Under the pieces are notes generated by a model. That model searched no databases and had not been told where the DNA came from. It saw nothing but the letters and a program-made list of their open reading frames with translations. A stretch of 23,837 nt of DNA from a virus. The stretch's first letter is position 1. The number at the start of each line of letters is the position of its first letter. A program made the translations under genes and the position numbers. Below are positions 1 through 16,073 of this stretch, piece by piece. Where the stretch lies: IMG/VR virus record IMGVR_UViG_3300044640_001328, positions 1-23,837 of that record; one strand, 5' to 3'.

Positions 1-182
1 TCCTCTTTGTTAAAAGCAACTTCATAATATAAGATTTCCCAAGGCATCTTTTTACTAGTGGTTATAGTTTTTCCTGAATTATGCTGTATAATTCTTTCAT
101 CTAAGTATAATCGGCAAAACGAAAAGTATAAATTTTCAAAACCAAAAGTACCATAAAAATCCAAAAGCCGATGCATCCACAT
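1..182 (-). CDS. Partial ORF running off the left edge, unknown
   Basis: An open frame without stops runs leftward from two in-frame ATG codons (182-180 and 176-174) to the window edge, about 60 codons, with the 3' part missing. The visible translation contains LYLDERIIQHNSGKTI and KKMPWEILYYEVAF, which read like ordinary protein, but I recognise no family. Both ATG codons lie inside the terminator hairpin that follows the preceding gene, so they are doubtful starts; a TTG at about codon 7 is another option. It may be a further phage accessory gene, or a host gene whose 5' part was separated by prophage insertion. The sequence shown cannot decide between these. Confidence 0.35.
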   Translation of the reverse strand, partial: MWMHRLLDFYGTFGFENLYFSFCRLYLDERIIQHNSGKTITTSKKMPWEILYYEVAFNKE

Positions 183-199: not shown

Positions 200-838
200 T
201 TAACCAACGTTTAAATTAAACTTAACCGCTTCGCCACTCAACAACTCCCTAGTGCCCTCTATGTTGTTCTCATAGATGTGAACATTACCCAAGAACAATG
301 TTATAGACTTCAACTGCAGCTCAATCTGTTTACTTATCAAGTACAGGTGATAAATGTCAGACGGTAGTCCAAGGGATGCATCAGAACTACGCTGATAAGC
401 ACTCACAATTAGTTTGCCTTTATCAATTTGAAACTGTATCAAACTTAAGCACGGCTGTTGGTTACTCTCGGTGTTGTTAGAACCAAGAAACAAAACGTAG
501 TTCTTTGACGTTCGCTTTTCTATATTGATTTTCTCAATAAGCTTTGGCAACTGTTCAAAATATGTAGGATAGCTATTTACTAAAATAGGTCCACAATAGT
601 CCCACCAACTTACTCCGATTTCACGGTAAGCCTCTGTCATTCGCTCGCCTCGCATAAACAAAACCAACTCATCTTTAAGCTTCTTTTTTGCAACTGAATG
701 CCCCTCAAATAGCTCCAATAAATCAATTGGCTTTAACTCTAATGCTTGATTAACTAGATAAGTAATTGATCCTTTTTTATTCTCTTGACACCTTCCTTTT
801 GTCAAGATTTTGTCTAAAATTTCGTGATACTTATTCAT
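200..838 (-). CDS. Thymidylate-synthase-family protein, candidate dCMP (hydroxy)methylase
   Basis: This 212-residue protein is a divergent ThyA-fold enzyme. Visible landmarks are PC at 129-130 followed by an IQF...GKL pattern (the catalytic-Cys segment, Cys130), YQRSSD at 148-153 (phosphate-binding Arg150), the LGLPSD segment ending in Asp161, and HIYEN at 187-191 (His187, Tyr189). The segment DELVLFMRGE around 56-65 and the WWDYCG that follows match the ThyA helix and Trp region. Where thymidylate synthase has LPFN, with the Asn that selects dUMP (Asn177 in E. coli), this protein has LPSD. That Asn-to-Asp change is the known signature of dCMP hydroxymethylases such as T4 gp42. The His after the catalytic Cys is Leu here, and the protein is shorter than ThyA (264) and T4 gp42 (246), lacking parts of the N- and C-terminal regions. 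Its ATG overlaps the methyltransferase stop by 8 nt, implying translational coupling. The family is fairly sure; the substrate is inferred. Confidence 0.72.
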   Translation of the reverse strand: MNKYHEILDKILTKGRCQENKKGSITYLVNQALELKPIDLLELFEGHSVAKKKLKDELVLFMRGERMTEAYREIGVSWWDYCGPILVNSYPTYFEQLPKLIEKINIEKRTSKNYVLFLGSNNTESNQQPCLSLIQFQIDKGKLIVSAYQRSSDASLGLPSDIYHLYLISKQIELQLKSITLFLGNVHIYENNIEGTRELLSGEAVKFNLNVG

Positions 839-1649
839 ACTTGTAAAGCATTATATCCGTATAACTTGAGTTATAATTCATTGTTGCGTTCATTGTGGCA
901 GTTGTAGAGCCAATAAACGGGTTGCTCATAGGCGTTTTCGTTTCAATCCACTCACACAACTCAATGATTGAAGACTTGTTTGAGGTAAAGTAAAAATACT
1001 TAGTGCCGTCCAGAACCTGCAAAACGTCCAAATAATCCTTTAACTTCCAAAAACTTTTGTATGTTCCGGCTTCAGTGGACAAATAAGGCGGATCAACCAT
1101 AAAAACCACATTTTCCAAATGTTTATATTCCGCAAACAATTCTTTATAACATTTGGAAACAACGGTCAGGCCATGCAAATAACCTGTAGCATCATAATCG
1201 GACTGCCGCACACAATTGTAAAGCGTTTCTTTCGCTAAAGCTTCAAATGATTGCACATACTTCATTGAAAACAAAATCGAACTACTCAAGGTTATGTAAT
1301 CAACATAACCCGCCATGTCGTCCTTAAGAACCCGTTTTAAAAATTCTACACCTATGCGTTTATCTTTCGGGAAATCGCCCAAAATCGCTCTAATATCCCC
1401 AATTAAGCGATTGGTCTTGTCGATGTTATCAAGTCGCTCGCGATAATTGTCAAAATCATTGTAAATTACTGTGGCATCTGGATAAATAGCCTTAACCGTG
1501 TGGCTTAATAAACCGCTTCCACCAAATAAGTCAACATAAGTTGCCGTTTGCGAATAATTAATTAAAGCAGGCTTAAACTGCTTTAAAAACTTTCTTTTCT
1601 GACCCATAAACGGCAAAGGCGCCGTTGTAAAAACTTTCTTTTTTTCCAT
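831..1649 (-). CDS. DNA adenine-N6 methyltransferase (Dam/D12 class)
   Basis: This 272-residue protein has the alpha-class adenine-N6 methyltransferase layout: PFMGQKRKF at 13-21 (motif X), DLFGGSGLLS at 40-49 (S-adenosylmethionine-binding motif I), NDFD at 64-67 (acidic motif II) and the catalytic DPPY at 186-189. FTSNKS near 221-226 fits the following conserved strand. It would transfer a methyl group to adenine in a short DNA target; the target sequence cannot be read from the protein. Its stop overlaps the start of the thymidylate-synthase-like gene, so the two are probably made together. It is preceded by a 188-bp leader with strong RNA structure and no good minus-strand promoter of its own. 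It lies at the distal end of the late genes, where Mu carries its DNA-modification gene mom. Protection from host restriction is the natural role, but this is inferred. Confidence 0.85.
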   Translation of the reverse strand: MEKKKVFTTAPLPFMGQKRKFLKQFKPALINYSQTATYVDLFGGSGLLSHTVKAIYPDATVIYNDFDNYRERLDNIDKTNRLIGDIRAILGDFPKDKRIGVEFLKRVLKDDMAGYVDYITLSSSILFSMKYVQSFEALAKETLYNCVRQSDYDATGYLHGLTVVSKCYKELFAEYKHLENVVFMVDPPYLSTEAGTYKSFWKLKDYLDVLQVLDGTKYFYFTSNKSSIIELCEWIETKTPMSNPFIGSTTATMNATMNYNSSYTDIMLYKYE

Positions 1650-1656
1650 TCGATTT

Positions 1657-1686
1657 TTGATTGATGATTAATGATTTGTATATTTG
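1657..1686 (+). promoter_or_regulatory. Flavobacterial-type promoter on the plus strand
   Basis: TTG at 1657-1659, a 19-nt spacer and TATATTTG at 1679-1686 match the TTG-N(17-23)-TAnnTTTG consensus exactly. It points right, against the late operon, from just upstream of the methyltransferase start codon. No ORF follows; a hairpin and T7 terminator lie about 110-120 nt downstream. Confidence 0.6.
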
Positions 1687-1692
1687 TGCCTC

Positions 1693-1813
1693 TCAGGATA
1701 ATTAATAAAAACAGCAAAGCCACAGCACTAGAAGACTTTTGTCCTCCAACGCTGTGGCTTGTGCTATAATTAAATTACCGTGAGAAGTTTTTAATTGTTG
1801 GAGGACTTTTTTT
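1693..1813 (+). ncRNA. Putative ~120-nt small RNA antisense to the methyltransferase leader
   Basis: The region is bounded by a consensus plus-strand promoter (1657-1686) and a plus-strand terminator: the 10-nt arms at 1741-1750 and 1797-1806 are perfectly complementary and the second is followed by seven T. The transcript start at about 1693 is estimated from promoter spacing. It contains no convincing ORF. It would be fully complementary to the leader of the minus-strand methyltransferase transcript, including the hairpin at 1717-1760, so regulation of that leader is the simplest role. This is inferred from sequence signals only. Confidence 0.45.
1717..1760 (-). promoter_or_regulatory. 20-bp RNA hairpin in the methyltransferase leader, probable attenuator
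   Basis: In minus-strand RNA, positions 1760-1741 pair along their whole length with 1736-1717 around an AAAA loop: 16 Watson-Crick pairs and 4 G-U pairs. Read on the plus strand the same four positions become A-C mismatches, so the structure looks maintained for minus-strand RNA. A U-rich stretch (UUUGCUGUUUUU) follows, as in an intrinsic terminator. The segment 1806-1797, upstream in the same RNA, is a perfect 10-nt complement of 1750-1741 and could compete for it as an antiterminator. A simple intergenic terminator or an RNase III site are alternatives. Confidence 0.55.
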
Positions 1814-1837: not shown

Positions 1838-2197
1838 TTACTTGTTTTTCCGCCTAATAACTTCAAGTATAATTATAGCAGTCAAAACCCCTACTGCAAA
1901 CCAAAGTTCGTTAACGGCGATACCAACCGCACCCGCCACCGTTGTAGCGTAAATGTCCTGCCAACTTCTTTTATTACCGCCCAGCTCTTTATGTGCTCCA
2001 AAGAATTTTCTTTGAATCCACTCAACCACAAAGCCTAAACAAAAGGATGCAAGGGTTAGAATAAACCACCGCCAAAAGTTACCTACATTCCCAAAGTCAA
2101 ACCACTCTGGGTTTTTATCAGAGTACATAATTACAGGCTGCATCAAAATGATAATCAACGCGTGTAGGTGCCACTTGGCTTTCAAAATTGTTTTCAT
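1838..2197 (-). CDS. Small multi-pass membrane protein, putative holin
   Basis: This 119-residue protein has hydrophobic segments at about 12-27, 43-62 and 82-114; the last is long enough for one or two passes. It ends in a basic tail (RRKNK). Size, number of spans and location after the tail-fibre genes fit a phage holin, which would open the inner membrane to release the endolysin encoded at 15566-16012. There is no diagnostic holin motif that I can recognise, so holin is a contextual call; another phage membrane protein is possible. It follows a terminator and a possible 36-codon ORF and precedes the structured methyltransferase leader. Confidence 0.5.
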   Translation of the reverse strand: MKTILKAKWHLHALIIILMQPVIMYSDKNPEWFDFGNVGNFWRWFILTLASFCLGFVVEWIQRKFFGAHKELGGNKRSWQDIYATTVAGAVGIAVNELWFAVGVLTAIIILEVIRRKNK

Positions 2198-2211
2198 AGT
2201 TCCTATTTAAA

Positions 2212-2322
2212 TTAATTACTTACACTCTCGTCAATGCTTTTGAAGCAATGATTTTTGTCTATTTTGTCCAGGACATAGGCGACAAATACCCCTAATTTAG
2301 TGAGTGTTCTATTTATGGGCAT
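2212..2322 (-). CDS. Possible 36-residue ORF
   Basis: An ATG at 2322-2320 opens 36 codons ending in TAA at 2214-2212, inside the 179-bp gap between the last fibre gene and the holin-like gene. The product starts MPINRTLTKLGVFVAYVLDK and ends in an acidic-polar tail. It would be cotranscribed with the holin-like gene, whose start lies 15 bp further on. I recognise no family. The ORF is short enough to be chance. Confidence 0.3.
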   Translation of the reverse strand: MPINRTLTKLGVFVAYVLDKIDKNHCFKSIDESVSN

Positions 2323-2342
2323 TTTGCCAATGGATATTAAGC

Positions 2343-2366
2343 ATTAAAATAACCCTCTAATTAAAG
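2343..2366 (-). terminator. Intrinsic terminator after the tail-fibre genes
   Basis: A 7-bp stem (ACCCTCT against AGAGGGT, short AT-rich loop) lies just past the stop of the last fibre-like gene. On the minus strand it is followed by TATTTTAA, a moderate U-rich tail. It probably separates the structural tail operon from the holin and DNA-modification genes, which then depend on read-through or an unseen promoter. Confidence 0.55.
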
Positions 2367-2376
2367 AGGGTATAAA

Positions 2377-2859
2377 CTACACAATGTCGCTTGTGGTTTG
2401 AATTTCATTTAGAATAAAATAAGAGCCTTCAACAACAATTCTACCTCCAAAATCGTCAAAAGAAAAACAAGGCTGTAAAAAGGTATTTTCAATACATTTA
2501 AAAACACCCTCAATTTCAATTAGTGTATTTTCGGTAATACTTGAACCACCGTCTAAAATTTCATTTAAACCGAAATTAGTTTGTGATTTTTCTACTGTTG
2601 GAAGTGTTCCAATAGGCAATGAGGTTACTTTTGAAATAAAAGAAATGTCTTTTACATTTGATAAATCTCCATTCATTTTAAAATTGATTTGACTAAATGA
2701 CAATTGCTCGTCATTTATTTCAATTTTTGATTTAAAAGAATAGATTTTACCTGACTTAACAGGAATCATTCCTTTATTTAAACTACCCTCATTAAAAATT
2801 TTAACAGGCTCTAAACTAGATTCTAGTTGATAATTGTTTTTTTGAAAAATACGTTCCAT
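2377..2859 (-). CDS. Hypothetical distal tail or fibre-associated protein
   Basis: This 160-residue protein has no recognised family. Its beta-rich character (alternating hydrophobic and polar residues, few long helices, no signal peptide) resembles the variable C-terminal parts of tail fibres. It is the last gene of the tail operon, 20 bp after the preceding fibre-like gene and just before a terminator, a position typical of fibre tips or fibre chaperones. Function is inferred from position only. Confidence 0.45.
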   Translation of the reverse strand: MERIFQKNNYQLESSLEPVKIFNEGSLNKGMIPVKSGKIYSFKSKIEINDEQLSFSQINFKMNGDLSNVKDISFISKVTSLPIGTLPTVEKSQTNFGLNEILDGGSSITENTLIEIEGVFKCIENTFLQPCFSFDDFGGRIVVEGSYFILNEIQTTSDIV

Positions 2860-2879
2860 TTTTTAAAGTATTAAATTAA

Positions 2880-3653
2880 TTATTTGTAAACTATTACACT
2901 CATTCCTAAATTATTTATTACATCGCCAGCACCAGCGACTATATACAAATCCAACTCATAGGCTTCATTTGGCACAAAAGAAATAATTGAATTACTACCT
3001 ATTCCATTATTTAAATGAAAGTCAAGAAATACTTCTGGATTAACTACTATGCTGTTATCTGGATTTATGTATATTGTTTTGTCAATTACCGCAAACAAAG
3101 AAGAGTTTAAACTATCATTAAATACTTCAATTTCAGAATCATCAATAGTATTTCTTAACTTTATAACAGCCGAAGGAAAATCAAGTTCGGTTATTAATTG
3201 CGCTTCAATTTTTATTTTTTTGATTTCGTTTAGTTTGCCAATTGGAATTGTTCGTGCTAAAAATGGTGTTGTTGAATCTGTACTTACAATATTATTTTGA
3301 ATTATAGTTATAGGTAAGTCGCTTTTTTTCGCATACTCAACACTACTCCAAACCGTACCGTTGTAAAATCTGTAAACTAAAGCACCAGCTGTATAACCTA
3401 CACCGTCTATTGTGGTTGTACCGCCAACTACGTGAACTATATAACCCTTGTTTGTTTCGGGCGTTGGGTCGGTAATTGTTAAAGTTCCATTTGTGGAATA
3501 AGCTACTAAATTAACCGCTGTGAAATTTGATGTTTGGATGTTGGCGAAGGGAATATATCCCGTTTCATTTTCATGAACTAACAACTTAACCATTTCAGGA
3601 GTTACTTCAGCTCCTTTAGGCTTGTTTTCTAATATGTAGGTTCTTTTTTTCAT
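2880..3653 (-). CDS. Putative tail-fibre protein
   Basis: This 257-residue protein starts MKKRTYILENKPKGAEVTPE. It combines a short helical N-terminus with a long beta-rich body: repeated T/N/G-rich stretches, a TLTITDPTP...GYIVHVVGGTT region around 57-80 like phage fibre beta domains, and a terminal SVIVYK strand. It lies 5 bp downstream of the LRR fibre gene and 20 bp upstream of another distal protein. It probably forms part of the host-recognition apparatus. No enzymatic motif is visible. Confidence 0.55.
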   Translation of the reverse strand: MKKRTYILENKPKGAEVTPEMVKLLVHENETGYIPFANIQTSNFTAVNLVAYSTNGTLTITDPTPETNKGYIVHVVGGTTTIDGVGYTAGALVYRFYNGTVWSSVEYAKKSDLPITIIQNNIVSTDSTTPFLARTIPIGKLNEIKKIKIEAQLITELDFPSAVIKLRNTIDDSEIEVFNDSLNSSLFAVIDKTIYINPDNSIVVNPEVFLDFHLNNGIGSNSIISFVPNEAYELDLYIVAGAGDVINNLGMSVIVYK

Positions 3654-3658
3654 AATAA

Positions 3659-4987
3659 TTAACCGCTTACGGTACAGTTTTTACTTTCTAAAATTGTTTT
3701 TAAAGTTGTTCCTGAAACAGAATCTGTATTGCCCCCCAATAGAACATTACAAGTACTTGTAAATGGCAATAAACTATTTGCCCAACTCTCCATTACTGTA
3801 TATGCAGCAGTTGTCATCTCATTAGAGTTTAAATCTAAATATCTCATTGTAACAGGCAAACCAACTGGCGGATTAAATATAGATAGTTGGTTTTGAGAAA
3901 TTATTAAAACTGCTAAATCAGGAAAATCAATAGCAGGATTAAATGAAGTAAGTTGGTTACTAAATAACATTAAACTTTGCAAACCGTTTACAACGCCTAT
4001 TTTATCAGCATTAGTCAACTGAAGACCATCTAAAGTATACATAGTTCCATCAGCAATCATGTTACAGATAATTGTATTACCAACCAGAGAAAAATTACTA
4101 ACTTCTATATTTGTTAAATCATTTGCGTCTTCATGTGAGTTTACCCGATTACCTAACCAGTATATAAAACTAGCTTCATCAGTAACTCCTTCAAATGCCC
4201 AATTAGGACTTGTTAACTCAAAATTATATGTAGTTTCAACTTCATCCGTAATGTCAAAATAATAAATCTCATTATCATTTTCGACAATTTCCAAACTATC
4301 AATCCAATCTTTTACAATTTCGTTTGTGAGTTCGTCAAATGTGGTCAATCCTAAATCAGCTAATGAGGTTGTGAAAAATATGTTTTTCTTAAAACCGTCA
4401 CCACTAGGCGTTCCATTAGCTAATAAGTGGTTAACACTCCAATATTCCACATCATCAACAACTTCAATTAATTTTAAAATAGCTAGTCCGTTGGTTGGGA
4501 TTAAAGGAGAGCCTATAAATTCAATGGCAGTATCAAATGTAACCTCTCTCGGTGTAGGCGAGGTATTTTTAATCCAAAATTCCGTGTTAGCTGTAAATCC
4601 TAAACTTAAAACGGGGTCAAACTCCGTTGTGATTGTTAGAAATTTATTGTCGTCTGATTGAATTAAAAAATATGGATCTTCGTCTGTTACCAATTTTACA
4701 GTTCGGTTTCCTGCGTCTGAAAGCAATTCCTCAACTTGTTCAGGTATATTTTCAATCGCATCCGCTAAATCCTGAGCCGTACCCTCATAACCACCGCGAT
4801 CAACTTTACCTGCAAGTTGTTCGTTGGATGCTTTAGAATTTAAAGCGTTTTCAAGTCCATCAATCTTATTTGTCGGTATCGTTTCGTCCTTGTGCCAGTA
4901 TGAGTCCATCCACGCCCAAAATTGAGCCTGTGTAGGTTTTAAACCGGTTTTAAACCAGTTTTTTATCGTGTTTAAATTTGTAGCCAT
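3659..4987 (-). CDS. Tail fibre with leucine-rich repeats
   Basis: This 442-residue protein begins with a helical attachment region containing NWFKTGLKPTQAQFWAWMD, a pattern I associate with Bacteroidota phage fibres. An acidic beta-rich middle follows, then three to four leucine-rich repeats between about 325 and 395, visible as LQSLMLFSNQLTSF, LAVLIISQNQLSIF and MRYLDLNSNEMT. The C-terminus (GNTDSVSGTTLKTILESKNC) looks like the usual LRR cap in this group. LRR surfaces bind proteins, so receptor binding is likely. It starts one base from the upstream fibre gene's stop and is part of the same run of genes. Confidence 0.7.
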   Translation of the reverse strand: MATNLNTIKNWFKTGLKPTQAQFWAWMDSYWHKDETIPTNKIDGLENALNSKASNEQLAGKVDRGGYEGTAQDLADAIENIPEQVEELLSDAGNRTVKLVTDEDPYFLIQSDDNKFLTITTEFDPVLSLGFTANTEFWIKNTSPTPREVTFDTAIEFIGSPLIPTNGLAILKLIEVVDDVEYWSVNHLLANGTPSGDGFKKNIFFTTSLADLGLTTFDELTNEIVKDWIDSLEIVENDNEIYYFDITDEVETTYNFELTSPNWAFEGVTDEASFIYWLGNRVNSHEDANDLTNIEVSNFSLVGNTIICNMIADGTMYTLDGLQLTNADKIGVVNGLQSLMLFSNQLTSFNPAIDFPDLAVLIISQNQLSIFNPPVGLPVTMRYLDLNSNEMTTAAYTVMESWANSLLPFTSTCNVLLGGNTDSVSGTTLKTILESKNCTVSG

Positions 4988-5799
4988 TATGCCAGTGGAA
5001 TTAAAATGTATTCAAAAGATAAATTTTGTATAGGACCAGAAACTTCTCTAAGGCCTATTTTAAAAGAATTGTTTGCCTTTTCACGAATTACCCAAATAAC
5101 ATCGTTATCCGTGTCGAAGCTGCTTGAATTTGAAATCATAGTGCCGATTACCATATAATTGTTTGTGCCAACGGTCGGAAAAGTCACGGTCTTAATTTGA
5201 TCTGTTGTAGAGACATCGCCAAGAACAGCAACCCCTTGACGCAAAATAGTCACCACAGTAGGTTTGTTTTGGATAAAGGCTGGGCTCGTTGGGTTGGCTT
5301 CTGCCCAATTCGCCTTAACATTTACTTGAGCACCATCTTGAATGCCGCCAAGCTTTGTGTTCATTGTTCCTACCAAAGTAAGCAAAGCATCTACAACCGA
5401 TTTGTCGGCTTTTAAAAGTAAAGCGGCCACAATTTCAATAGTTGGCATTCCACGTTTGAAATCAGCCCACGGGTATGAGGTCGTTCCAGTTCCAAAAGTG
5501 GCGAAACGCTCTTTAATTACTTCGTTTGAATTTCCGTCTTCGAATTCGAGCGAAGTAATATTTTCCTGAATGATAATTGTTTCTTGTGCAAATCCGCCCA
5601 CGAACCTTAAAACTTCGCCATTTAAATAAATAACACCGTCAGACACATTCACTCCAATGGTGTTGCAGCCTAAAATAATGGACTTTTCGCCTGCAATAGC
5701 TCCAAGTGCGTTGAAGATGGAGTAAGCCGTTTGCATGCTGTCCAGTATGTCCGTTTCCAAAGGAAAACCGACCGATTGATTAAAGTTTAAAGTATTCAT
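4987..5799 (-). CDS. Baseplate-attached fibre protein
   Basis: This 270-residue protein overlaps the baseplate gene upstream by 4 nt and directly precedes the LRR fibre, matching the position of Mu gp49. The first 125 residues resemble a baseplate-docking domain. Around 165-182 it contains ANWAEANPTSPAFIQNKPT, a variant of the W-x-E-x-x-x-x-S-P-A-F-I-x-N-K-P motif found in many phage fibres of Bacteroidota. The C-terminal part is beta-rich and ends in a hydrophobic strand. A structural role linking baseplate and fibre is likely. Confidence 0.6.
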   Translation of the reverse strand: MNTLNFNQSVGFPLETDILDSMQTAYSIFNALGAIAGEKSIILGCNTIGVNVSDGVIYLNGEVLRFVGGFAQETIIIQENITSLEFEDGNSNEVIKERFATFGTGTTSYPWADFKRGMPTIEIVAALLLKADKSVVDALLTLVGTMNTKLGGIQDGAQVNVKANWAEANPTSPAFIQNKPTVVTILRQGVAVLGDVSTTDQIKTVTFPTVGTNNYMVIGTMISNSSSFDTDNDVIWVIREKANNSFKIGLREVSGPIQNLSFEYILIPLA

Positions 5800-6260
5800 A
5801 TAGCTTGTATTTTGTAGCGTTTTGACGCTAATTTGTAAAATTCAATTAGAGCGCGTAGCTCGTGTATTTTTGTGTTTACAATTTCGGCAGGCACAAATAC
5901 CGTAAAATCCGCACCCGTGTTTGTATATTCGTCATTTTGATAAATAAACATTGTACCAATAAACACAGGCTTATTTTCTGCCCTGGTATAAATGTATTTT
6001 CTAGGAAACGAGTTGCCGTCGGTTATGTAAATCCGTCGCAAAGCCGGGTCCAATTCATCATTCAATAATTTTCGAAGTTTACAAACTTGACCGTTATGAT
6101 AGAGTTTGTAATAGTGATCAAACCGTAGCAAAGTCCACTGATAATGCAGTTGCGAAATTGGCGCGACCAAGGCTTGCAAAAAAGCCACAGTCTTTGGCTT
6201 TCGCAAAAATGTTGGCAAAAGCAACAATACCAGCCTATTCCAATCTACACTATACCACAT
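5796..6260 (-). CDS. Baseplate protein, Mu gp48-like
   Basis: This 154-residue protein follows the J-like baseplate gene with an 11-nt overlap and precedes the fibre genes, which is where Mu has gp48. It begins MWYSVDWNRLVLLLLPTFLR, with the early DW...LPxxLR pattern common in the Bacteroidota versions of this protein, followed by a helical region rich in W and Y and then KLLNDELDPALRRIYI around 63-78. It probably forms part of the baseplate wedge. The call rests on gene order and general resemblance. Confidence 0.6.
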   Translation of the reverse strand: MWYSVDWNRLVLLLLPTFLRKPKTVAFLQALVAPISQLHYQWTLLRFDHYYKLYHNGQVCKLRKLLNDELDPALRRIYITDGNSFPRKYIYTRAENKPVFIGTMFIYQNDEYTNTGADFTVFVPAEIVNTKIHELRALIEFYKLASKRYKIQAI

Positions 6261-7083
6261 AAGCTATTGTGTCGAAGTTTTCAATTTTAAAATAACCCGC
6301 TTCTGGAATTCGTGCAATATTGAATGTGGTAAAGTCAGTATAACCACCCACATCAAAGTGGCTTGAGCTCGCACTCTGAATATGCACGTTTACCACGCCT
6401 GGCACTTTACGCAATTGCTCGATCATATCGTTTAAAACCAACTCTCCATTAAAAGGAAGCTCTTTCATATAAGCCTTAATTCTGTCTTCAATCGGTTGGC
6501 TGGGATTCCGAATACTCATTCCAGTATCGCTCAAAACCAATGGGTCACGGAAAACAACTAAATCCAAAATCAATTTATCGGCAGGATTGTTTACCACTTT
6601 AACTTTTACACCCGCATACTTAATCTCCTCGATATACGCCGTAAAGCTATCCAGTTGGTCATCAGTCAACGGTTCCAGGACCTCATTTACCTCACTGGCT
6701 ATTTTTACAATTAATCGGTTTGATTCCTGAGATTCTTTAACCGAGCAATATTTGACAATCTTTGAAGCTTCAATTTGTTCATCAGTGGCTAAAGTATTGT
6801 CGTACACGTCGCTATCGGTCATCAAGTAAAAGCCGTATTGAAAGTCCAAAGCCTTGTTTTTATACCAGTTTTTTGTGCCGGACTTTTGTTCGGAAATTCG
6901 GGTGTCGATGTCTATTGTGTGCTGGTCGAAAATCTTTTCGAGTGCCCAAATAGAAAAGGCGACCACAAATGTAAACAGCCTGTACAATGCCACCTTACTC
7001 GTGGAATTCATCGCCGATAAGTTTGGGTCGGTTGCTATTTGCGAAAGCATCGCTCCTTGTATTTCTTCTATTGTTCGTGCCAT
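6250..7083 (-). CDS. Baseplate protein J-like (Mu gp47 type)
   Basis: This 277-residue protein has the J-like layout: a helical N-terminus with early IEEIQGAMLSQIA, a central beta-alpha region with VVFRDPLVLSDTGM, then IEDRIKAYMKELPFNGELVL and IEQLRKVPGVVNVHI, the typical pattern for this family. In Mu and P2 the homologue forms the baseplate wedge that surrounds the hub. It abuts the 96-residue gene upstream (TAATG-type junction) and overlaps the gp48-like gene downstream. Confidence 0.75.
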   Translation of the reverse strand: MARTIEEIQGAMLSQIATDPNLSAMNSTSKVALYRLFTFVVAFSIWALEKIFDQHTIDIDTRISEQKSGTKNWYKNKALDFQYGFYLMTDSDVYDNTLATDEQIEASKIVKYCSVKESQESNRLIVKIASEVNEVLEPLTDDQLDSFTAYIEEIKYAGVKVKVVNNPADKLILDLVVFRDPLVLSDTGMSIRNPSQPIEDRIKAYMKELPFNGELVLNDMIEQLRKVPGVVNVHIQSASSSHFDVGGYTDFTTFNIARIPEAGYFKIENFDTIAYVV

Positions 7084-7373
7084 TATTGTACTATAAAGTT
7101 TGTTTCTATAATCATTGAGCCTATGCCTACTGGCGGATTGATTTCGCTTTCGTTAATCATTGCTGTAGCAATCATTTGTTTTTTTCCTCCAAAATAACGG
7201 GCTACATCATCATTTCTAAACACCGAAACTTGAGAGGTGAGTTTTTGTCCTGGCTCTAATTCTTCAGTGATAGAGATGCCATTGGCGATAGCCCACTCGA
7301 AAGCGGCTAAAACGTTCCCATCTTCTTGAATGGCAATGTCTAAAACTGATTGATTAGATAATACAGTTATCAC
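7083..7373 (-). CDS. Small LysM/tail-X-like protein
   Basis: This 96-residue protein begins MITVLSNQSVLDIAIQEDGN and continues with AFEWAIANGISITEELEPGQKL. That layout (strand, helix, helix, strand, with a G..L end) is LysM-like and resembles phage tail protein X. In contractile-tailed phages such proteins join the hub or baseplate and may contact peptidoglycan. It overlaps the 118-residue gene upstream by 4 nt and touches the J-like gene downstream. Confidence 0.55.
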   Translation of the reverse strand: MITVLSNQSVLDIAIQEDGNVLAAFEWAIANGISITEELEPGQKLTSQVSVFRNDDVARYFGGKKQMIATAMINESEINPPVGIGSMIIETNFIVQ

Positions 7374-7726
7374 GGATGCTCCTTTTTATATTTGTTAAAT
7401 TCTCTTACTTTGTCATCATACATTTTCTTGTAGAGAACGACTTGCTTTTTTAATAACTCTAACTCCTGTTGCAGTAGTTTTTCTTTACTATCAAAAAGCC
7501 TTTCTATGTTTTTGCATCGGTTTTCAATATCCTGGTACTTTTGTTCGTACCGAACACTCAAGTCGTCCAAAGCATTTTTATAAAGCTCTACTACTTTAGA
7601 ACCGTTATCTATTTCACTACCCGTTGCTTCCGCATTAAGCTTTTTTCTTGTAAAAAACCAACCGCAAAAACCGCCGATTCCGCCTGTAGCCGAAAGCAAA
7701 ATAATTTCATTAAGTAGTTCGCCCAT
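7370..7726 (-). CDS. Membrane-anchored coiled-coil protein
   Basis: This 118-residue protein has one glycine-rich N-terminal membrane span (about 8-26, then RKK) and a long, strongly charged coiled coil from about 40 to 118. I do not recognise a named family. The topology of a single N-terminal span plus coiled coil resembles an i-spanin (Rz), but the gene sits between gp46-like and LysM-like baseplate genes with 1- and 4-nt overlaps, and the window has another spanin candidate at 14981-15562. Either a second lysis factor or a tail-associated membrane protein is possible. Confidence 0.5.
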   Translation of the reverse strand: MGELLNEIILLSATGGIGGFCGWFFTRKKLNAEATGSEIDNGSKVVELYKNALDDLSVRYEQKYQDIENRCKNIERLFDSKEKLLQQELELLKKQVVLYKKMYDDKVREFNKYKKEHP

Positions 7727-8007
7727 TATCTATTTTTTATATTGATTAACTTTTTAATATCATCATAATTTTTATTATCACGTTTTAAAAACAATCTAAC
7801 CCGCTCCTCAAACTCTTGATCGTTCGCCTCAGCCTTTACAAGCTGTATCAAATTAGGAGCTAAAACGGGATCGCTCTTTAACTCTCCAGAGTTTAATCTT
7901 AAAATGATTCCAACCTCTTGCAGAGTGCTTTCGTCAATGAAAAAATCGCCGTTAATGATAGCTATATCATCTGTGTCATCCAATAATATGTCCTTAGCAA
8001 GTATCAT
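7726..8007 (-). CDS. Baseplate protein, Mu gp46/T4 gp25-like
   Basis: This 93-residue protein starts with an acidic strand segment (ILLDDTDDIAIINGDFFI), then EVGIILRLNSGELKSDP and a charged helical C-terminus. The small size, the early D-x-x-x-I-x-x-G-D-F pattern and the position between the spike gene and the J-like gene match the Bacteroidota form of Mu gp46. It would link the baseplate wedge to the sheath. It overlaps both neighbours by a single base (ATAATG-type junctions). Confidence 0.65.
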   Translation of the reverse strand: MILAKDILLDDTDDIAIINGDFFIDESTLQEVGIILRLNSGELKSDPVLAPNLIQLVKAEANDQEFEERVRLFLKRDNKNYDDIKKLINIKNR

Positions 8008-8567
8008 TATCCGTGTTTAATTTTTTCATTTTCAATATTTGATAAATCGGCTCTTTGCAAATTTGTAAACAGGCTAACCAAACTTTTTAATGCAGAACCC
8101 CCATCTTGGGGTACTGGAGTCCAAGTCGTAAAAACTTCTTGCATTTTTTGAATTATTAGCGTGTTTTTATCAACCTGTAATTTCAACTCTTTTGCATTTA
8201 CCAAACCGCCAAATTGATCCCCATTAAAAGTTAGTAGGCCGTCCTTTAAAACTATTTTAAACCCCGTTTCATCAATTATTTCTAATATTTCAATCTCATC
8301 GCATTCAATCAAAAAGGCATCGGCAATATTATTGTTAATGATACCTATAAGGCATTTTGTTTTAACTTTTGGCTTTTTATAAATTGAACCAATTCCGAGG
8401 TTAACATCGAAAAAATCCAAATCGTCAACTAAGCCGGTTGCAACCATTGTTTTTTTGTCCCAGTCAACTGATTTCACATTGCACCAATGCGTTTGAACAT
8501 CAATCAGTTTTTTAGTTCTCTCGTTGAGAACCGCGCCAAGCTCCGTTATGTTATCTCCTCGTTTCAA
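8007..8567 (-). CDS. Baseplate spike protein, gpV/Mu gp45-like
   Basis: This 186-residue protein fits gpV in size and gene order (after gpP, before gp46). Residues 30-105 have the alternating pattern expected of the OB-fold (VKSVDWDKKTMVATGLVDDL, then KKPKVKTKCLIGIINN), followed by a short beta segment (GFKIVLKDGLLTFNGDQFGG) that may form the spike shaft, and a C-terminal helix. The trimer would puncture the outer membrane. It overlaps the hub gene by 4 nt. Confidence 0.65.
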   Translation of the reverse strand: MKRGDNITELGAVLNERTKKLIDVQTHWCNVKSVDWDKKTMVATGLVDDLDFFDVNLGIGSIYKKPKVKTKCLIGIINNNIADAFLIECDEIEILEIIDETGFKIVLKDGLLTFNGDQFGGLVNAKELKLQVDKNTLIIQKMQEVFTTWTPVPQDGGSALKSLVSLFTNLQRADLSNIENEKIKHG

Positions 8568-9544
8568 CTTGTTTTTTGATCTAATTTTATAACCTGACGA
8601 ATTCCCTCCCGGTTAAATGTTTTTGCAACTCCTTCGATATAATAAAGTCCGTTCCTATCATCATATAAGGAACTTGTTAAATCCGCTTTTTGTCCGTGCT
8701 TTACTGATGGAATTCCAAAAGCAGTAAATGACCCATCGAACCGGTCTTGCTTACTTTTTTCGAAGTCCAGTTTTACCAAAACTTCGAGTTCACTTTTTGT
8801 TTTATTATAATGAGTGAGCTGTCTTGTTTGCCCGTCTTTATCTCCAAACTCCACTTCAATTTTTGTCCCATTCGATAAAGTTGAAACTCCTTTGATTAAT
8901 ATTTGAATATCGTCTTTACGGACGTAATTCAGAGAGCTGCTTACACAGTTTCGCTCTAAGTCAAAGTTCACTTTTGCCTCATCGCTGTCATCGGAATAAT
9001 ACTTACCACACACAAGAACCGGAGAGCCGTTGACCGTTTTAAAGTAAGTATTCAATTTCCACGGCTCTTGTTGCAATTTTTCTAAAACTTCGGCAACCGT
9101 AGTTTTAGGAAAGCGAACACTTCCTATTTGAACACCTTCCAAAGCATCAATTTTATAACCTGGTGCAATATTGGAAAGCAACTCTTTGAGGCTAATATTT
9201 GGACTACTAAAGTTTACAGGAATTTGTTTGAGCTTCCACATTTCGTCCTGCAGTTTTATTCTAATCGGAATATCTGCAGAAACTTCTGTTATATAGCCTC
9301 GGAACTCCTCGACATTATTGCCATTATAGCCAAAAGCAATCGTTACATAATCGCCCCGGCGAAAAGTATTACGTACACTGTTTTTATCAAAGAACTTTAC
9401 TTTACGTGGAATCACTATTTCAGCTGTATCCGTTAAAAGCTTCCACGAGCTTTCAACGACTATTTCAGTAACTTGGGTTAAAGTAATTGCTGGTCGCCTT
9501 TCATTTTCCGAAAAGACTATTTTACAATTCATCGCTAGGGTCAT
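8564..9544 (-). CDS. Tail hub protein, Mu gpP/P2 gpD-like
   Basis: This 326-residue protein lies between the DUF6046-like protein and the spike gene, as expected for gpP. It has the beta-rich hub pattern: an early segment ending in WKLLTDTAEIVIPR, then FRRGDYVTIAFGYNG and EEFRGYITEVSADIPIRIKL, and a middle helical segment (VAEVLEKLQQEPWKL) typical of gpD hub domains. It would form the trimeric hub between tube and spike. It overlaps its neighbours by 4 nt on both sides. Confidence 0.7.
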   Translation of the reverse strand: MTLAMNCKIVFSENERRPAITLTQVTEIVVESSWKLLTDTAEIVIPRKVKFFDKNSVRNTFRRGDYVTIAFGYNGNNVEEFRGYITEVSADIPIRIKLQDEMWKLKQIPVNFSSPNISLKELLSNIAPGYKIDALEGVQIGSVRFPKTTVAEVLEKLQQEPWKLNTYFKTVNGSPVLVCGKYYSDDSDEAKVNFDLERNCVSSSLNYVRKDDIQILIKGVSTLSNGTKIEVEFGDKDGQTRQLTHYNKTKSELEVLVKLDFEKSKQDRFDGSFTAFGIPSVKHGQKADLTSSLYDDRNGLYYIEGVAKTFNREGIRQVIKLDQKTS

Positions 9545-10182
9545 ACCTTCTTATTTGTGTCTGGCAAAATCAAAACAATAGACTCATCCGAACTTAAAGA
9601 CATTGAGAAAGGAATAATACCTGGAGAACCCTGTACGCTTTCTTCTTTATAGTCATCAATTGTAATGGCGTGAATATTTTTGTTAGTAAACAGGCTCCCA
9701 CTTATTTCAATTGATGCCGCTAAATTTTCCCATTCTCCCAAAGTTTTAATTTGGTCAGTCGCACTCATTTCGGGCGTATCTATCGCCATTCCTTTAACAT
9801 CAATTATCCAATCATCAAATCCAAATATTTCTCTAACGGTACCGTTGCTTCCTAAAAGATTTGTTTTTGTAATATTTTTTGCTCTACGAAATGAAAACAA
9901 GGTTGCAGGTGGCAATGTAAAGTCCGGCATTTGTTTATCGTCTAAAACTCCATTCGAGTTATATTGTTTATACGTTCCGCCTTTAAATTTTAGAAGCCCA
10001 ATTATAGGCGTACCCATCCAGCTGGTTGCTTCCGATTTATGGTAATCTTTTATAATTTCGATCCCTTTGTAATCAAAGGTTTCCTTTTGCTCTTTTGATA
10101 AAGGCTCCGTAATAAATACGGGAGCGTTAATCCCAAAAGCGGCTTGAAATAATTGCGAAAGGTTGTATCTTGAATCTGCCAT
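9541..10182 (-). CDS. Tail protein, probably DUF6046 family
   Basis: This 213-residue protein sits between tape measure and hub, where Mu has gp43 (N). It contains PPATLFSFRRAKNI around 91-104 and FGFDDWIIDVKGMAI around 120-134, a pattern I associate with the DUF6046 family of Bacteroidota phages, though I could not check this. The likely role is a distal-tail or hub-connecting component. It overlaps the hub gene by 4 nt and follows the tape measure by one base. Confidence 0.5.
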   Translation of the reverse strand: MADSRYNLSQLFQAAFGINAPVFITEPLSKEQKETFDYKGIEIIKDYHKSEATSWMGTPIIGLLKFKGGTYKQYNSNGVLDDKQMPDFTLPPATLFSFRRAKNITKTNLLGSNGTVREIFGFDDWIIDVKGMAIDTPEMSATDQIKTLGEWENLAASIEISGSLFTNKNIHAITIDDYKEESVQGSPGIIPFSMSLSSDESIVLILPDTNKKV

Positions 10183-10183
10183 T

Positions 10184-12196
10184 TTATCCTATTTGTATCA
10201 CTCCGTCACGAAGACGATCAATTATTAACCCGGTTACTTCATCGGCTATTTTTCGTATATCCATTGAACCGTTTACCCCAAAATGATTATTAACTGTTAA
10301 GTTTTGAACTATTGACTTACTTACGTTATTGCCATCAGTTGCAGTTACTCCCGCGTTTTTAGTATTTTTATCGGTAGTGGTTTGCCCTAAATTTTTTAAA
10401 GATATTGTGCCGGGTGTTTCGGTTTTTGAATCTAAAACTACTTTTGATTTTTTGGTCGCGGTTTGCTTTTGATCTGCTTTTGCTTCAAGCGCCTCTTTTG
10501 CATTTTGTTCTTTTTCGCCTTTGGTAACTAATTTGTTATCGTTTCTAAATTTCTCAATTTTTTTGGCCAAAGAGTCCAAACCAACCATTTCAAATAATTG
10601 TTGCATTGGTTTCAATATAGCATCTATAATAACCATTCCAATACGTTTTAAGCCCCCAATAATTCCATCCGTTTTAAAAGCGGTTTTAATACTTTCCCAA
10701 TGGTCGTAAATTGATTTGAACGCTCCGATGACAATTCCAATTGGTCCCAATAATAAACTCATTGCCGCACCCCAACTGTCCCAGTAATTAATTATGGTAG
10801 CCACCACGGCAATAAGTGCTACAATAGCAAGAATTATTACACCTATTGGGTTTGCAGTCATTGCCGCATTCAATCCCATTTGTGCGGCAGTGGCTAAGCC
10901 AGTTATTCCAGTCCAAACCCGTTGAGCAACAGATACAATTTTTGTTTTTGCCGCACTTATTAAGGATTGATCTGCTGTTAAACCTAGCATTGTTTTTACG
11001 CCACTTAATGCCGTTTTATATCCTTCGTAAGCGTTTTTTCCGTCGGCCATAATACTAATAGCATTTGCTCCAGCACTTACATAAGGAGAATAAGCTGCGG
11101 TGTATTCGCCTATTGCAATTTTAGCGTCATTGTACCATGCGTTAAGCCTGCTTTGCTTTTCGGCTGTAGTATCCATCATCACAGCCGCCTGTTCTTGTGC
11201 AGTATTGGTGTTTACAATTTTGCTCCTTAGTTCATCCTGAGCGTCTACACTGTTTAGCATTATACTTGCAGCAGCCGCATTTTCAGTACCAAACATTTGA
11301 GCCATAATTGTAGCATCGCCTTGTGCTTTTTTAAGCTCTCGTAAACGGGTAGTCAATGGTAGCGAGGTATTAGAAACCACATTCATATTAACACCTAATC
11401 GGCTTAATTTTTCAACGGCTTCTTTAGGCAATACATCTACTCCAGCCATTTTACCTAATACATTACGCAAAGCAACACCCGCCTCCGAGCCTTCTTTTCC
11501 ACCAGCGGCTAATGCTTGCAAAACGGCGTTTGTTTCTTCAAAGGAAACATTCGATTGTTTGGCCTGGACCCCCGCTACTTTTAAAGCTGCCGCAATACTT
11601 GGAACTTCTGCCGCTCCTTCTTTTGCACCAGCCGCCATAATGTTCATCATTCGAGTCATCTCTTCTTGAGCTGCAGTAGGATCGGATAAGTCTACGCCGT
11701 ACTGAAGCATCGCTGTGGTAAGAGCATCTACAGAACCTGCCGCATCGTTACCCATTGTTTTAGAAAGTGTACGAACATTGCGTTCCATCTTTTCTAAAGC
11801 TTCGGGCGATTTGGCAATATCAGGGCCTAAACGGGAAAGCAAGGTTTTATAAGTGTTCAAACTATCCGTTGCCTCTCCGCCAAAGTCTTTGGCACTTTTG
11901 CGGGCTTTTTCGCCCAAATCGTCAAGTGCCGCACCGGTAACTCCCGTAATGGCAGAAACCTCTGCAAGTCCGCTTTCGTAACTTATGAAAGGTGCGTTTA
12001 GATTTTCAAATCGTTGGTTTAAATTTTGAGCCGATTGCGATATAGCTTGCAAATCGATTGCGTTTAATCTTTTAAAGCAAGCCCCTAAATTATCAACTCG
12101 TGTACTAGCCGTATTTACAACCTCTTGTACTTTCTGTACCGAGTTTGAAATTAAGTCCTTGAACTTTAGTTCCCAAGTTGTAATTGCGTTTGACAT
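10184..12196 (-). CDS. Tail tape measure protein
   Basis: This 670-residue protein has an N-terminal coiled-coil region (about 10-70), then the conserved tape-measure core with YESGLAEVSAITGVTG, KDFGGEATDSLNTYKTL and EVPSIAAALKVAGVQAKQS, rich in Ala, Gly and Gln. A very hydrophobic part at about 445-500 (ANPIGVIILAIVALIAVVAT) is typical of the membrane-active segment, and a Lys/Thr-rich C-terminal linker follows. The size implies a fairly short tail. It is followed at once by the DUF6046-like gene and preceded by 190 bp that contain a plus-strand cassette. Confidence 0.85.
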   Translation of the reverse strand: MSNAITTWELKFKDLISNSVQKVQEVVNTASTRVDNLGACFKRLNAIDLQAISQSAQNLNQRFENLNAPFISYESGLAEVSAITGVTGAALDDLGEKARKSAKDFGGEATDSLNTYKTLLSRLGPDIAKSPEALEKMERNVRTLSKTMGNDAAGSVDALTTAMLQYGVDLSDPTAAQEEMTRMMNIMAAGAKEGAAEVPSIAAALKVAGVQAKQSNVSFEETNAVLQALAAGGKEGSEAGVALRNVLGKMAGVDVLPKEAVEKLSRLGVNMNVVSNTSLPLTTRLRELKKAQGDATIMAQMFGTENAAAASIMLNSVDAQDELRSKIVNTNTAQEQAAVMMDTTAEKQSRLNAWYNDAKIAIGEYTAAYSPYVSAGANAISIMADGKNAYEGYKTALSGVKTMLGLTADQSLISAAKTKIVSVAQRVWTGITGLATAAQMGLNAAMTANPIGVIILAIVALIAVVATIINYWDSWGAAMSLLLGPIGIVIGAFKSIYDHWESIKTAFKTDGIIGGLKRIGMVIIDAILKPMQQLFEMVGLDSLAKKIEKFRNDNKLVTKGEKEQNAKEALEAKADQKQTATKKSKVVLDSKTETPGTISLKNLGQTTTDKNTKNAGVTATDGNNVSKSIVQNLTVNNHFGVNGSMDIRKIADEVTGLIIDRLRDGVIQIG

Positions 12197-12210
12197 TTTT
12201 ATTATCTTTG
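12178..12210 (+). promoter_or_regulatory. Flavobacterial-type promoter for the 55-residue plus-strand gene
   Basis: TTG at 12178-12180, a 22-nt spacer and TATCTTTG at 12203-12210 match TTG-N(17-23)-TAnnTTTG exactly. The start codon of the plus-strand gene lies 17 nt beyond the -7 box, giving a short leader. The -33 box lies within the first codons of the tape measure gene on the other strand. Confidence 0.65.
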
Positions 12211-12227
12211 CTCAAATTCGTATAACG

Positions 12228-12395
12228 ATGTATGAAACTTTTACTTTTTATGTGATTATGGCCTTTGTGATTTTTATTTCACTACTATTGGCTAACACTT
12301 TTATTGTTCCTAAATTTTTGAAAGTGGTTTTATTTTTTCTTAAAGCAATTGAAAAGGTTTTAAACAAAAGAGCTCAAAAAAGGTTATCGAGATAA
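12228..12395 (+). CDS. 55-residue membrane protein, opposite to the late operon (moron-like)
   Basis: An ATG at 12228 opens 55 codons ending in TAA. The product has one membrane span at about 7-28 (YVIMAFVIFISLLLANTFIV) followed by an amphipathic, strongly basic tail (KVVLFFLKAIEKVL, then NKRAQKRLSR). The frame stays open further upstream, but ATG 12228 is chosen because a consensus promoter ends 17 nt before it. An intrinsic terminator begins directly after the stop. It is therefore an independent unit in the gap between tape measure and tail chaperone, transcribed against both. Its 3' end overlaps the end of the frameshift extension by 12 bp. Small basic membrane proteins of this kind serve as superinfection exclusion factors, antiholins or type I-like toxins; the sequence does not say which. 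I recognise no family. Confidence 0.65.
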   Translation: MYETFTFYVIMAFVIFISLLLANTFIVPKFLKVVLFFLKAIEKVLNKRAQKRLSR

Positions 12396-12967
12396 GAACG
12401 CCTTTCCAAATTCGAAGAGGGCGTTTTTTATAACTATTTCAAGCGCTTCATTTTCCTTTTTTCGCACATAAGCCCACTCATTGTATAACTTCGACCATTC
12501 CTTATTGGAAAGCTCTTCGGGGTTAACTTTAAGAGAAAACCGCAGGATAGCATTTACTTTTTCTATCCATTGGTTTTCGTCCTCTTTGTCCTCTGGGTCA
12601 AGTTCAGACCCTTCTAAAGCTTTTTTATCTCGCTCTTAACACCGCTTATTAAAGTTGTAATATTTTCTACAAGTGCCAGATACATTGCGCCATTATTTTC
12701 AAGGGCTTCCATATCGCCCTCTAAAACGCATCCTAACAAGATTTTTGAGGCTCCGTTGATATCGTTTTTGCCGTTAGCACTCGTAATGGCTTGAATTACG
12801 CTTCGACTAGGGCGTTTTACCAAATAATAAAAATCTACGCCTTCATCGTCGGTAACGATAATTTCACGCAAGTTCGATTTTCCACCTACTTTGCCTTCGT
12901 GTTCCGCCACCGCTTCCGCTGTGTATGGCTTAACAATAACCTCTTTTTTGTTTTCAACTTCTGGCAT
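12384..12967 (-). CDS. Tail assembly chaperone, long form made by -1 frameshift
   Basis: The short frame (12614-12967) ends ...SEIKKL-stop. At codons AAA AAG, the heptamer A AAA AAG (12626-12620) permits a -1 slip. The -1 frame then runs 78 codons without interruption to a TAA at 12386-12384, beginning ALEGSELDPEDKEDENQW and ending NALFEFGKAFLSR, giving a fusion of about 194 residues. The extension has no start codon of its own near its beginning and is rich in charged residues, W and helices, as expected for the second half of a tail chaperone pair (Mu gp41/gp42, lambda G/GT). Location between tube and tape measure is the conserved one. Confidence 0.75.
12396..12430 (+). terminator. Intrinsic terminator of the plus-strand 55-residue gene
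   Basis: AACGCC at 12397-12402 pairs with GGCGTT at 12420-12425, with some further weak pairs inside, and the stem is followed by TTTTTT at 12424-12429. On the minus strand the same hairpin is followed by CTTATCTCG, not a U tract, so it should stop the plus-strand unit without blocking the late operon. Confidence 0.65.
12614..12967 (-). CDS. Tail assembly chaperone, short form
   Basis: From ATG 12967 (MPEVENKKEVIVKP) this encodes 117 residues; an in-frame ATG 21 nt upstream would overlap the tube gene and is less likely. Features include EAVAEHEGKVGGKSNLREIIVTD, DFYYLVKRPSRSVIQAI and a helical C-terminus. It follows the tube gene with almost no gap. Together with the frameshifted long form it would coat the tape measure during tail assembly. 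The slippery site lies just before the stop codon. Confidence 0.7.
   Translation of the reverse strand: MPEVENKKEVIVKPYTAEAVAEHEGKVGGKSNLREIIVTDDEGVDFYYLVKRPSRSVIQAITSANGKNDINGASKILLGCVLEGDMEALENNGAMYLALVENITTLISGVKSEIKKL
12620..12626 (-). other. Slippery heptamer A AAA AAG for -1 frameshifting
   Basis: In minus-strand sense the codons ATA AAA AAG give the canonical X XXY YYZ heptamer A AAA AAG, two codons before the stop of the short chaperone frame. The -1 frame is then open for 78 codons. Its position at the end of the first chaperone frame is the same as in lambda and Mu. Confidence 0.7.
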
Positions 12968-12972
12968 ATTTT

Positions 12973-13404
12973 TTAGATTACATTCCACTCAATGTGGCTG
13001 ATTAATAATTCATATTTTGTGGCAATGCTCATATCGTTTTGTTTTACTTCAACGCCATCGCCCATAAACTCCGCATTGCGAATTCTATCTTTTTTGATAG
13101 ATCCGTTTTCAGTTTCATACTCCACAACAATATCAAAAGGAGCGATGTCCTGAATTGTTTTACCTGCAGGTAATGCAAGTTTCAAAGCATCAACCTCCTC
13201 TTTTAAAAGCGTAATGGTTGCTTTCGCCTCATAGTTCCCACGACCTCGACCAATGGGAAATGCTCCCGCTCCGTAAACGTTCTCCTTTTTTTGCGAGTCG
13301 CTGTATGCGAGTTCCGTAACTCCTTCTAGGTCTCTACCTAAAAGATTGGCAGTAACTGCGTTCCAGCCCTGCATTACACCGAATTTATTTACTATCGTGC
13401 TCAT
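12973..13404 (-). CDS. Tail tube protein
   Basis: This 143-residue protein lies directly after the sheath (1 bp gap) as the tube does in Mu (gpM). It is beta-rich, with GVTELAYSDSQKKENVYGAG, YEAKATITLLKEEVDAL and a final ATKYELLISHIEWNV, resembling the Bacteroidota tube family. It polymerises into the inner tube around the tape measure. A tube role is supported by size, order and pattern rather than a motif. Confidence 0.7.
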   Translation of the reverse strand: MSTIVNKFGVMQGWNAVTANLLGRDLEGVTELAYSDSQKKENVYGAGAFPIGRGRGNYEAKATITLLKEEVDALKLALPAGKTIQDIAPFDIVVEYETENGSIKKDRIRNAEFMGDGVEVKQNDMSIATKYELLISHIEWNVI

Positions 13405-13405
13405 C

Positions 13406-14590: not shown

Positions 14591-14958
14591 TATTTCTTGG
14601 TATTAGAGTTTCTTGTTTCAGGATTTTTGCCGTTTTTACCTAAAGTTTTATCAACTGCAGGAGCATCAACTGCAGGAGCATCAACGGTAGGAACTTCAAC
14701 TACTGGAGCATCACCTGATGGAGTGCCATCTACATTTTCTGCATCTACATCAATATCTTCAACGGGTTTGTCCGTTTTGATGATATCGCTTCGGTCGAAG
14801 GGGTAGACTTTTAATTTACCTCTGCCAAGTTCCGCCAAGTTTTCATTAAAGAAAATGTTACCATCTTCTCGAGCGAAAACTTTATCCTCTGAAGGATACT
14901 GCTCAAACACTTCTTGTGCTTTCGCTTTCATTTCTTTTTTTGAATATACTTTGTTCAT
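14590..14958 (-). CDS. Hypothetical acidic protein with Val-Asp-Ala-Pro-Ala repeats
   Basis: ATG 14958 (MNKVYSKKEMKAKAQEVFEQ) gives 122 residues. The frame is open further upstream to 15084, but that part overlaps the spanin gene and looks like noise, so the shorter start is preferred. The N-terminal 60 residues form a small folded unit, also containing DGNIFFNENLAELGRGKLKV; the rest is an acidic, disordered tail with five 15-bp repeats encoding VDAPA-type units, then a basic end. Placement between capsid and sheath matches the small Mu genes gp35-gp38, but I cannot assign a function. Confidence 0.55.
   Translation of the reverse strand: MNKVYSKKEMKAKAQEVFEQYPSEDKVFAREDGNIFFNENLAELGRGKLKVYPFDRSDIIKTDKPVEDIDVDAENVDGTPSGDAPVVEVPTVDAPAVDAPAVDKTLGKNGKNPETRNSNTKK
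14651..14725. repeat. Five tandem 15-bp repeats in coding sequence
   Basis: Units of 15 bp (TCAACTGCAGGAGCA on the plus strand) start at 14651, 14666, 14681, 14696 and 14711. The first two are identical; the rest diverge progressively. They encode the VDAPA repeats of the acidic protein and preserve its frame. Slippage can change the copy number without breaking the gene. Confidence 0.75.
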
Positions 14959-14980
14959 TTTTTCGTTTTTTAAATAGTTT

Positions 14981-15562: not shown

Positions 15563-15565
15563 TAT

Positions 15566-16012: not shown

Positions 16013-16039
16013 TTCTTAAAAGATTTAGCCCCTAAGGGT

Positions 16040-16073
16040 GCAGTCGAGCCGCAATGGCTTCGACTGCCTTTTT
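16040..16073. terminator. Strong hairpin between capsid and endolysin genes
   Basis: An 11-bp stem with one bulged T (GCAGTCGAGCC at 16040-16050, GGCTTCGACTGC at 16056-16067, 5-nt loop) lies in the 77-bp gap. On the plus strand it is followed by CTTTTT, so as an intrinsic terminator it would act rightward. On the minus strand, the direction of the genes, no U tract follows. It may instead protect or process the capsid mRNA 3' end, lowering downstream expression. Confidence 0.5.

Follow-up and report, generated by a model that had tools for sequence, protein, structure and literature searches.

The last gene of a Mu-like transposable phage, real and conserved, codes for a protein with the fold of thymidylate synthase (TS, ThyA) in which the asparagine that reads dUMP, Asn177 of the E. 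coli enzyme, is replaced by an aspartate, and its label of 'thymidylate synthase' is very probably wrong regarding the substrate. The gene lies in a stretch of 23,837 bases that makes up an IMG/VR virus record (the window), at the end of a module shared with an adenine methyltransferase. Judged from the sequence, the reading that we favour, and to which we would give an even chance, is that of a phage-specific enzyme of the TS superfamily that has exchanged dUMP for a cytosine nucleotide as its substrate, is likelier to methylate it than to hydroxymethylate it, and sits in a terminal anti-restriction slot.

Features of the module and of the adjoining phage end (positions in the window)
Feature	Position	Strand	Basis or remark
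Right end of the phage genome, TATAATCG	106..113		minus strand reads ...TTTTGCCGATTATA up to the end
ThyA-fold enzyme, phage-specific subfamily, Asp161 at the Asn177 position, 212 aa, last phage gene	200..838	-	ORF, Pfam, AF2 model, alignments
Overlap of 8 nt between the ThyA-like and methyltransferase genes	831..838	-	ORF coordinates
D12-class (Dam-fold) adenine-N6 DNA methyltransferase, 272 aa, without cognate nuclease	831..1649	-	Pfam, PADLOC, motifs, fold
Covarying RNA element, promoter-like TATATTTG and terminator-like GGAGGAC-T7	1679..1813	+	covariation; directly upstream of the module, opposite strand

The remaining genes of the window are Mu-like (terminase, portal, Mu F, protease, major head protein, sheath and tail in Pfam and PHROG), and the record combines a Mu F protein, a Mu I-like protease and modification genes placed terminally at a transposon-like end, as is typical of Mu-like transposable phages; Mu F was also found in 28 of 30 related records. 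The left part of the phage lies outside the window, and a DDE transposase is annotated in hankyphage. Comparison of the DNA downstream of the module places the phage end at position 106, 94 nt past the stop codon of the ThyA-like gene, with positions 1-105 as flanking (host) DNA: related prophages agree up to the terminus TTTTGCCGATTATA and diverge after it, and a sister copy in a closely related phage (L002) has an identical end followed by different flanking DNA. In 43 of 114 loci the sequence CGATTATA stands no farther than 300 nt from the module, where shuffles would lead one to expect 1.0. The phage genome thus closes with the ThyA-like gene, which bears out the mom position given in the preliminary description: it is the slot that mom occupies in Mu. 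Repeats resembling TGTACATTT lie upstream of the terminal TTTTGCCGATTATA, and a terminus of this kind can help to delimit the prophages of this transposable phage group. At the scale of the window, the terminase-portal-Mu F block (18459-23762, plus strand) is opposed to the protease-head-tail block (1838-18296, minus strand), and hankyphage is split likewise. The Mu F-like protein itself (22551-23762, plus strand) has a CdiA_C domain at its C-terminus (PF18451, E=9e-7), and hankyphage BX-TP1 has one protein with a match to a glutamine-deamidase toxin domain (PF15644); together these suggest that the phage bears a toxin domain that can be exchanged.

The ThyA-like protein matches the Pfam family Thymidylat_synt (PF00303) above the cut-off (E=1e-21) and is a thymidylate synthase in PHROG too, yet it falls far under the NCBIfam cut-offs for ThyA. 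Its AF2 model (pLDDT 82, pTM 0.82) superposes on TS structures with a Z of 16.7 over 196 residues at 3.5 Å, establishing the TS fold, and Gp42 of phage Acj9 is among its viral structure matches. Confidence in the model is moderate near residues 40-90 and 120-130 and drops to 62 at the C-terminal tail; the model serves for the fold, and active-site residues were assigned from alignments. A viral scan returned 80 loci at 70-100% identity, the family occurs at about 71% identity in GenBank phages including hankyphage p00 and isolates, and a genome scan located it in prophages of Flavobacteriia, Sphingobacteriia and Bacteroidia, with the relatives recorded as plain 'thymidylate synthase'. One member, L106 (8001-8633), sits in a metagenome-assembled genome named Legionellaceae, probably as a contaminating Bacteroidota contig. 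Carriers amounted to 2 of 395 sampled Bacteroidota genomes (one of them the genome on which the sample was centred), and no intermediates between the phage family and host ThyA appeared in these 395 genomes, scores jumping from 1e-119 to 1e-15. All ten host genomes examined have a normal full ThyA of their own, so a supply of dTMP is not the need. The dN/dS of the family is low (about 0.06-0.08, from few pairs). PADLOC gave no defence-system profile match for the protein, and a Bacteroidota-type promoter directly before the gene in the sense direction, present in only 3 of 102 loci, finds no support. The gene is not discussed in the searched text of two hankyphage papers (PMC12135933, PMC6199706) and of a paper on gut temperate phages (PMC12629997).

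In agreement with the preliminary description, Cys130, Arg150, Asp153, His187 and Tyr189 align with C146, R166, D169, H207 and Y209 of E. coli TS, and Asp161 falls on Asn177 whether the alignment is made with phmmer, MAFFT or HHalign, anchored by an invariant LGLP. Distinct relatives from transposable phages of Bacteroidota, including hankyphage, share this aspartate in 138 of 138 cases, which rules out a one-off or chance substitution. Alongside it, Glu57, Cys130, Arg150, Ser151 and Asp153 are invariant across the 138 members, and the set of catalytic Cys, Glu, Arg, Asp, His and Tyr is retained in 137 to 138 of them. Substitution of Asn by Asp at the Asn177 position shifts TS towards dCMP, and an aspartate there marks TS genes on phage contigs with modified cytosine (PMC8670742); T4 gp42 likewise requires its Asp179 (PMC6400193). 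The CMP hydroxymethylase MilA has an alanine (Ala176) where TS and dCMP hydroxymethylase (dCH) have a serine (PMC5175136); the phage family shares the cytosine-type aspartate with MilA but has Ser151, at the Ser167 position, in all 138 members, and a deoxy- rather than a ribo-substrate is therefore predicted. Against this conserved background, Leu86 replaces Tyr94 of TS in 137 of 138 members (Met in the other), in a locally gapped stretch of the alignment, an obstacle that the preliminary description had missed: TS needs Tyr94, and T4 dCH the equivalent Tyr96, for removal of the C5 proton, and Y96F gave no product (PMC6400193). His147 of TS is Leu131 in the family, Arg126' is Ser111 and Arg127' is Lys112, so that with Lys21 the phosphate pocket is changed. 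A subdomain of about 32 residues ahead of the C-terminal tail and the WADENGD loop are missing relative to TS, and a set of residues is invariant or nearly so in this family only (Trp78, Tyr81, Tyr90, Arg109, Asn113, Tyr114, Tyr163 and His164). This is a remodelled active site, in which either another residue takes over the work of Tyr94 or the reaction is unlike those known.

For T4 dCH a signature has been proposed that consists of Asp145 (or Glu) at -3 of the catalytic cysteine and of Ser94-x-Tyr96, and both D145N and Y96F abolish the activity (PMC6400193). In the phage family, the -3 position is Gln127 in 138 of 138 members, where the Asp/Glu of dCH is thus absent, and Pro84-Ile85-Leu86 align at the Ser/Thr-x-Tyr of dCH (94-96); Ser89-Tyr90 are nearby but adjacent to each other. 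All 136 complete members end in F-x-L-N-[VTI], a motif that falls on KAPVAI, the tail of TS, and in the superposed structures residue 211 of the model is matched to residue 264 of the E. coli enzyme; T4 gp42 lacks a C-terminal tail. The family stands apart from T4-type enzymes in a tree with long branches, and its profile match to dCH (1e-9) is much weaker than that to TS (4e-18). Since the dCH signature, with the Asp/Glu that activates water in T4 gp42, is absent and the folate-closing tail of TS appears to be kept, a methyl product is favoured, and 5-methyl-dCMP is predicted as more likely than the 5-hydroxymethyl-dCMP of T4 gp42 that the preliminary description had named beside it.

The neighbouring gene encodes an enzyme that matches MethyltransfD12 in Pfam above the cut-off (PF02086, E=3.5e-8), D12 adenine methyltransferases in PHROG, and the type II profile MTase_II of PADLOC over its whole length (E=6.5e-61). 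It has invariant DLFGGSG and DPPY, in keeping with the FxGxG and DPPY motifs of its class, and its model superposes on E. coli Dam (Z 15.8, 221 residues, 3.4 Å). The structure predictions thereby confirm both folds anticipated in the preliminary description, and the 8-nt overlap of the two genes is present as described. The same overlap with an upstream methyltransferase gene recurs in 18 loci, and 4-nt overlaps, on either side, occur in a further 19; overlaps of these lengths are so common that they point to co-translation. To speak of a coupled pair, as the preliminary description did, goes too far, however: among 61 genome loci with both flanks (which are not independent, so that the counts are descriptive), a methyltransferase lies within 500 nt, on either side, in 40, mostly of the type seen in the window and elsewhere from another D12 clade or of the ParB-type N6/N4 class, and none is adjacent in the other 21 according to Pfam and PADLOC searches of the neighbouring proteins. 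The larger records contain a D12 enzyme in 22 of 45 cases and an N6/N4 enzyme above the cut-off in 2 of 45. An obligate enzyme pair is ruled out by the 21 loci; the ThyA-like gene can have one methyltransferase exchanged for another beside it or, in about one third, do without. In hankyphage p00/BX-TP1 the genes annotated as 'thymidylate synthase' and 'DNA methyltransferase N6' belong to the same families and occupy the same position (about 71% and 53% identity), whereas the gene order is reversed relative to the window, with a 95-nt gap. A methyltransferase has been placed at the same terminal site in Flavobacterium phage fF4, as described in its paper, whose searched text does not mention a ThyA-like gene (PMC7761591). 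The fF4 genome (L206, 24000-31958) ends just past a truncated methyltransferase, annotated with 154 aa, whose match covers only the first 132 residues of the enzyme in the window; the ThyA-like gene may be absent from this record for want of sequence at the genome ends.

An undescribed RNA element, which matches no Rfam family at the gathering score, is encoded directly before the module in the opposite orientation. It has an invariant promoter-like TAnnTTTG of Bacteroidota type and two covarying stems. Stem 1 occurs in 25 distinct combinations and is paired in 86%, against 48% in shuffled sequences; for stem 2, where the arms were picked as the best match and the figures are hence descriptive, 39 of 40 are perfect, with 22 distinct arm pairs. 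The GTCCTCC of the apical loop is complementary to the 3' GGAGGAC that precedes the run of T's, and 34 of 34 sequences preserve this long-range pairing, two of its positions showing double changes; a pseudoknot or a switch is possible. The element precedes the module in 61 of 157 loci, mainly in phages of Flavobacteriia and including fF4 but not hankyphage, and its core pattern occurs 71 times in 2 Mb of loci.

In the favoured reading, the substrate would be a cytosine nucleotide, most likely dCMP; Cys130 would attack C6, methylenetetrahydrofolate would donate the carbon, and Asp161 would read the base and protonate N3. The terminal (mom) slot of Bacteroidota Mu-like phages, shared with an exchangeable orphan adenine methyltransferase, would be one filled by exchangeable modification genes, most likely altering the phage DNA against host restriction. 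The invariant residues, the TS-like tail together with the missing dCH residues, the low dN/dS, the serine shared with TS and dCH, the hosts' own ThyA, the terminal slot and the methyltransferase neighbours all argue for it. Its difficulties are the leucine in place of the Tyr94/Tyr96 equivalent, whose role another residue must fill, the serine in place of the phosphate-binding Arg126', the orientation of the gene with the late genes at their far end, which is late for a precursor enzyme, and the moderate confidence of the model at 40-90 and 120-130, the active-site residues having been placed by alignment. The further route to DNA is a difficulty as well: cytidylate kinase was found in 0 of 30 related records, and the 25 of 60 Pfam families covered for hankyphage BX-TP1 include neither a nucleotide kinase nor a deaminase or a DNA polymerase. 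That these searches turned up no phage kinase to carry a modified dCMP on to the triphosphate keeps an enzyme acting at the level of DNA in play as an alternative.

Such an enzyme would modify cytosine within a polynucleotide rather than free dCMP; this could be RNA or, in the manner of Mom with adenine, the phage DNA. The mom position, the late orientation, the DNA methyltransferases next door and the dearth of nucleotide-pathway genes fit it, as do the altered phosphate pocket and the many family-specific invariant residues; the invariance of Arg150 and Ser151, whose TS equivalents hold the free monophosphate and the deoxyribose, does not, and we know of no TS-fold enzyme that acts on DNA. 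We hold this reading unlikely. Unlikely too, but slightly ahead of the other rivals, is a dCMP hydroxymethylase that makes 5-hydroxymethyl-dCMP by the mechanism of T4 gp42: the equivalence of Asp161 with Asp179, the ThyA fold, the short overall length and the Acj9 Gp42 structure match speak for it, but Gln127 and Leu86 occupy family-wide the positions whose mutation (D145N, Y96F) inactivates the T4 enzyme (PMC6400193), the tail is of a kind absent in dCH, and both the tree, within the limits of its long branches, and the profile scores point elsewhere. Between these two in probability, and still improbable, we place a protein that modifies no DNA and instead alters host nucleotide or folate pools, or a binding or regulatory protein derived from ThyA; this would explain the loss of Tyr94, His147 and Arg126' and the many loci, about one third, where the gene has no methyltransferase beside it, while the near-complete retention of the catalytic residues argues for catalysis. 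The same slight weight goes to a more speculative idea, a new cytosine-modifying TS-fold enzyme that dispenses with the tyrosine, possibly acts on cytosine in phage DNA, would be the functional counterpart of Mom in Bacteroidota transposable phages, and may yield neither 5-methyl- nor 5-hydroxymethylcytosine. An ordinary thymidylate synthase, finally, is what the Pfam, PHROG and GenBank labels say, but the Asp in all members, the Leu in nearly all, the scores far under the NCBIfam cut-offs and the full ThyA of the hosts stand against it; Asp161, Leu86 and host ThyA rule it out for practical purposes, and the chance that we leave it is very small indeed.

Set beside known enzymes, the family shares with ThyA (PF00303; E. 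coli, L. casei) the fold, the catalytic and binding residues (Cys, Glu, Arg166, Ser167, Asp169, His207 and Tyr209) and the tail pattern, and differs at Asn177, Tyr94, His147 and Arg126', which are Asp, Leu, Leu and Ser in the family. The mutants L. casei N229D and E. coli N177D, which are dCMP methylases by mutation, combine the Asp with the folate-closing tail as the phage family appears to do, but the phage family also lacks Tyr94 and His147. Phage XP12 has a 5-methyl-dCMP enzyme, a type whose Asp at 177 the family has and whose methyl product is predicted for it. With T4 gp42 it has in common the base-reading Asp, the catalytic Cys and the Glu, but it has no Asp/Glu at -3 and no Ser-x-Tyr, it has a tail, and it forms a separate clade. 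The likeness to mom of Mu lies in being the last genes of a transposable phage and in a putative role in DNA modification; the fold of Mom is unrelated, and only the position is shared.

Taken as a whole, the family belongs to the TS superfamily as a variant not described before, and the evidence does not support calling it a dCMP hydroxymethylase. Its lack of Tyr94 and His147, together with a cytosine-type Asp and a TS-type tail, makes it an experiment of nature on the residues that set methyl transfer apart from hydroxymethyl transfer. The Bacteroidota phages that carry it, hankyphage included, are widespread in the gut and in the environment, and hankyphage offers a laboratory system in which cytosine modification can be tested. 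If cytosine is indeed modified, a common group of gut prophages would have modified DNA, with effects on restriction, sequencing and phage engineering.
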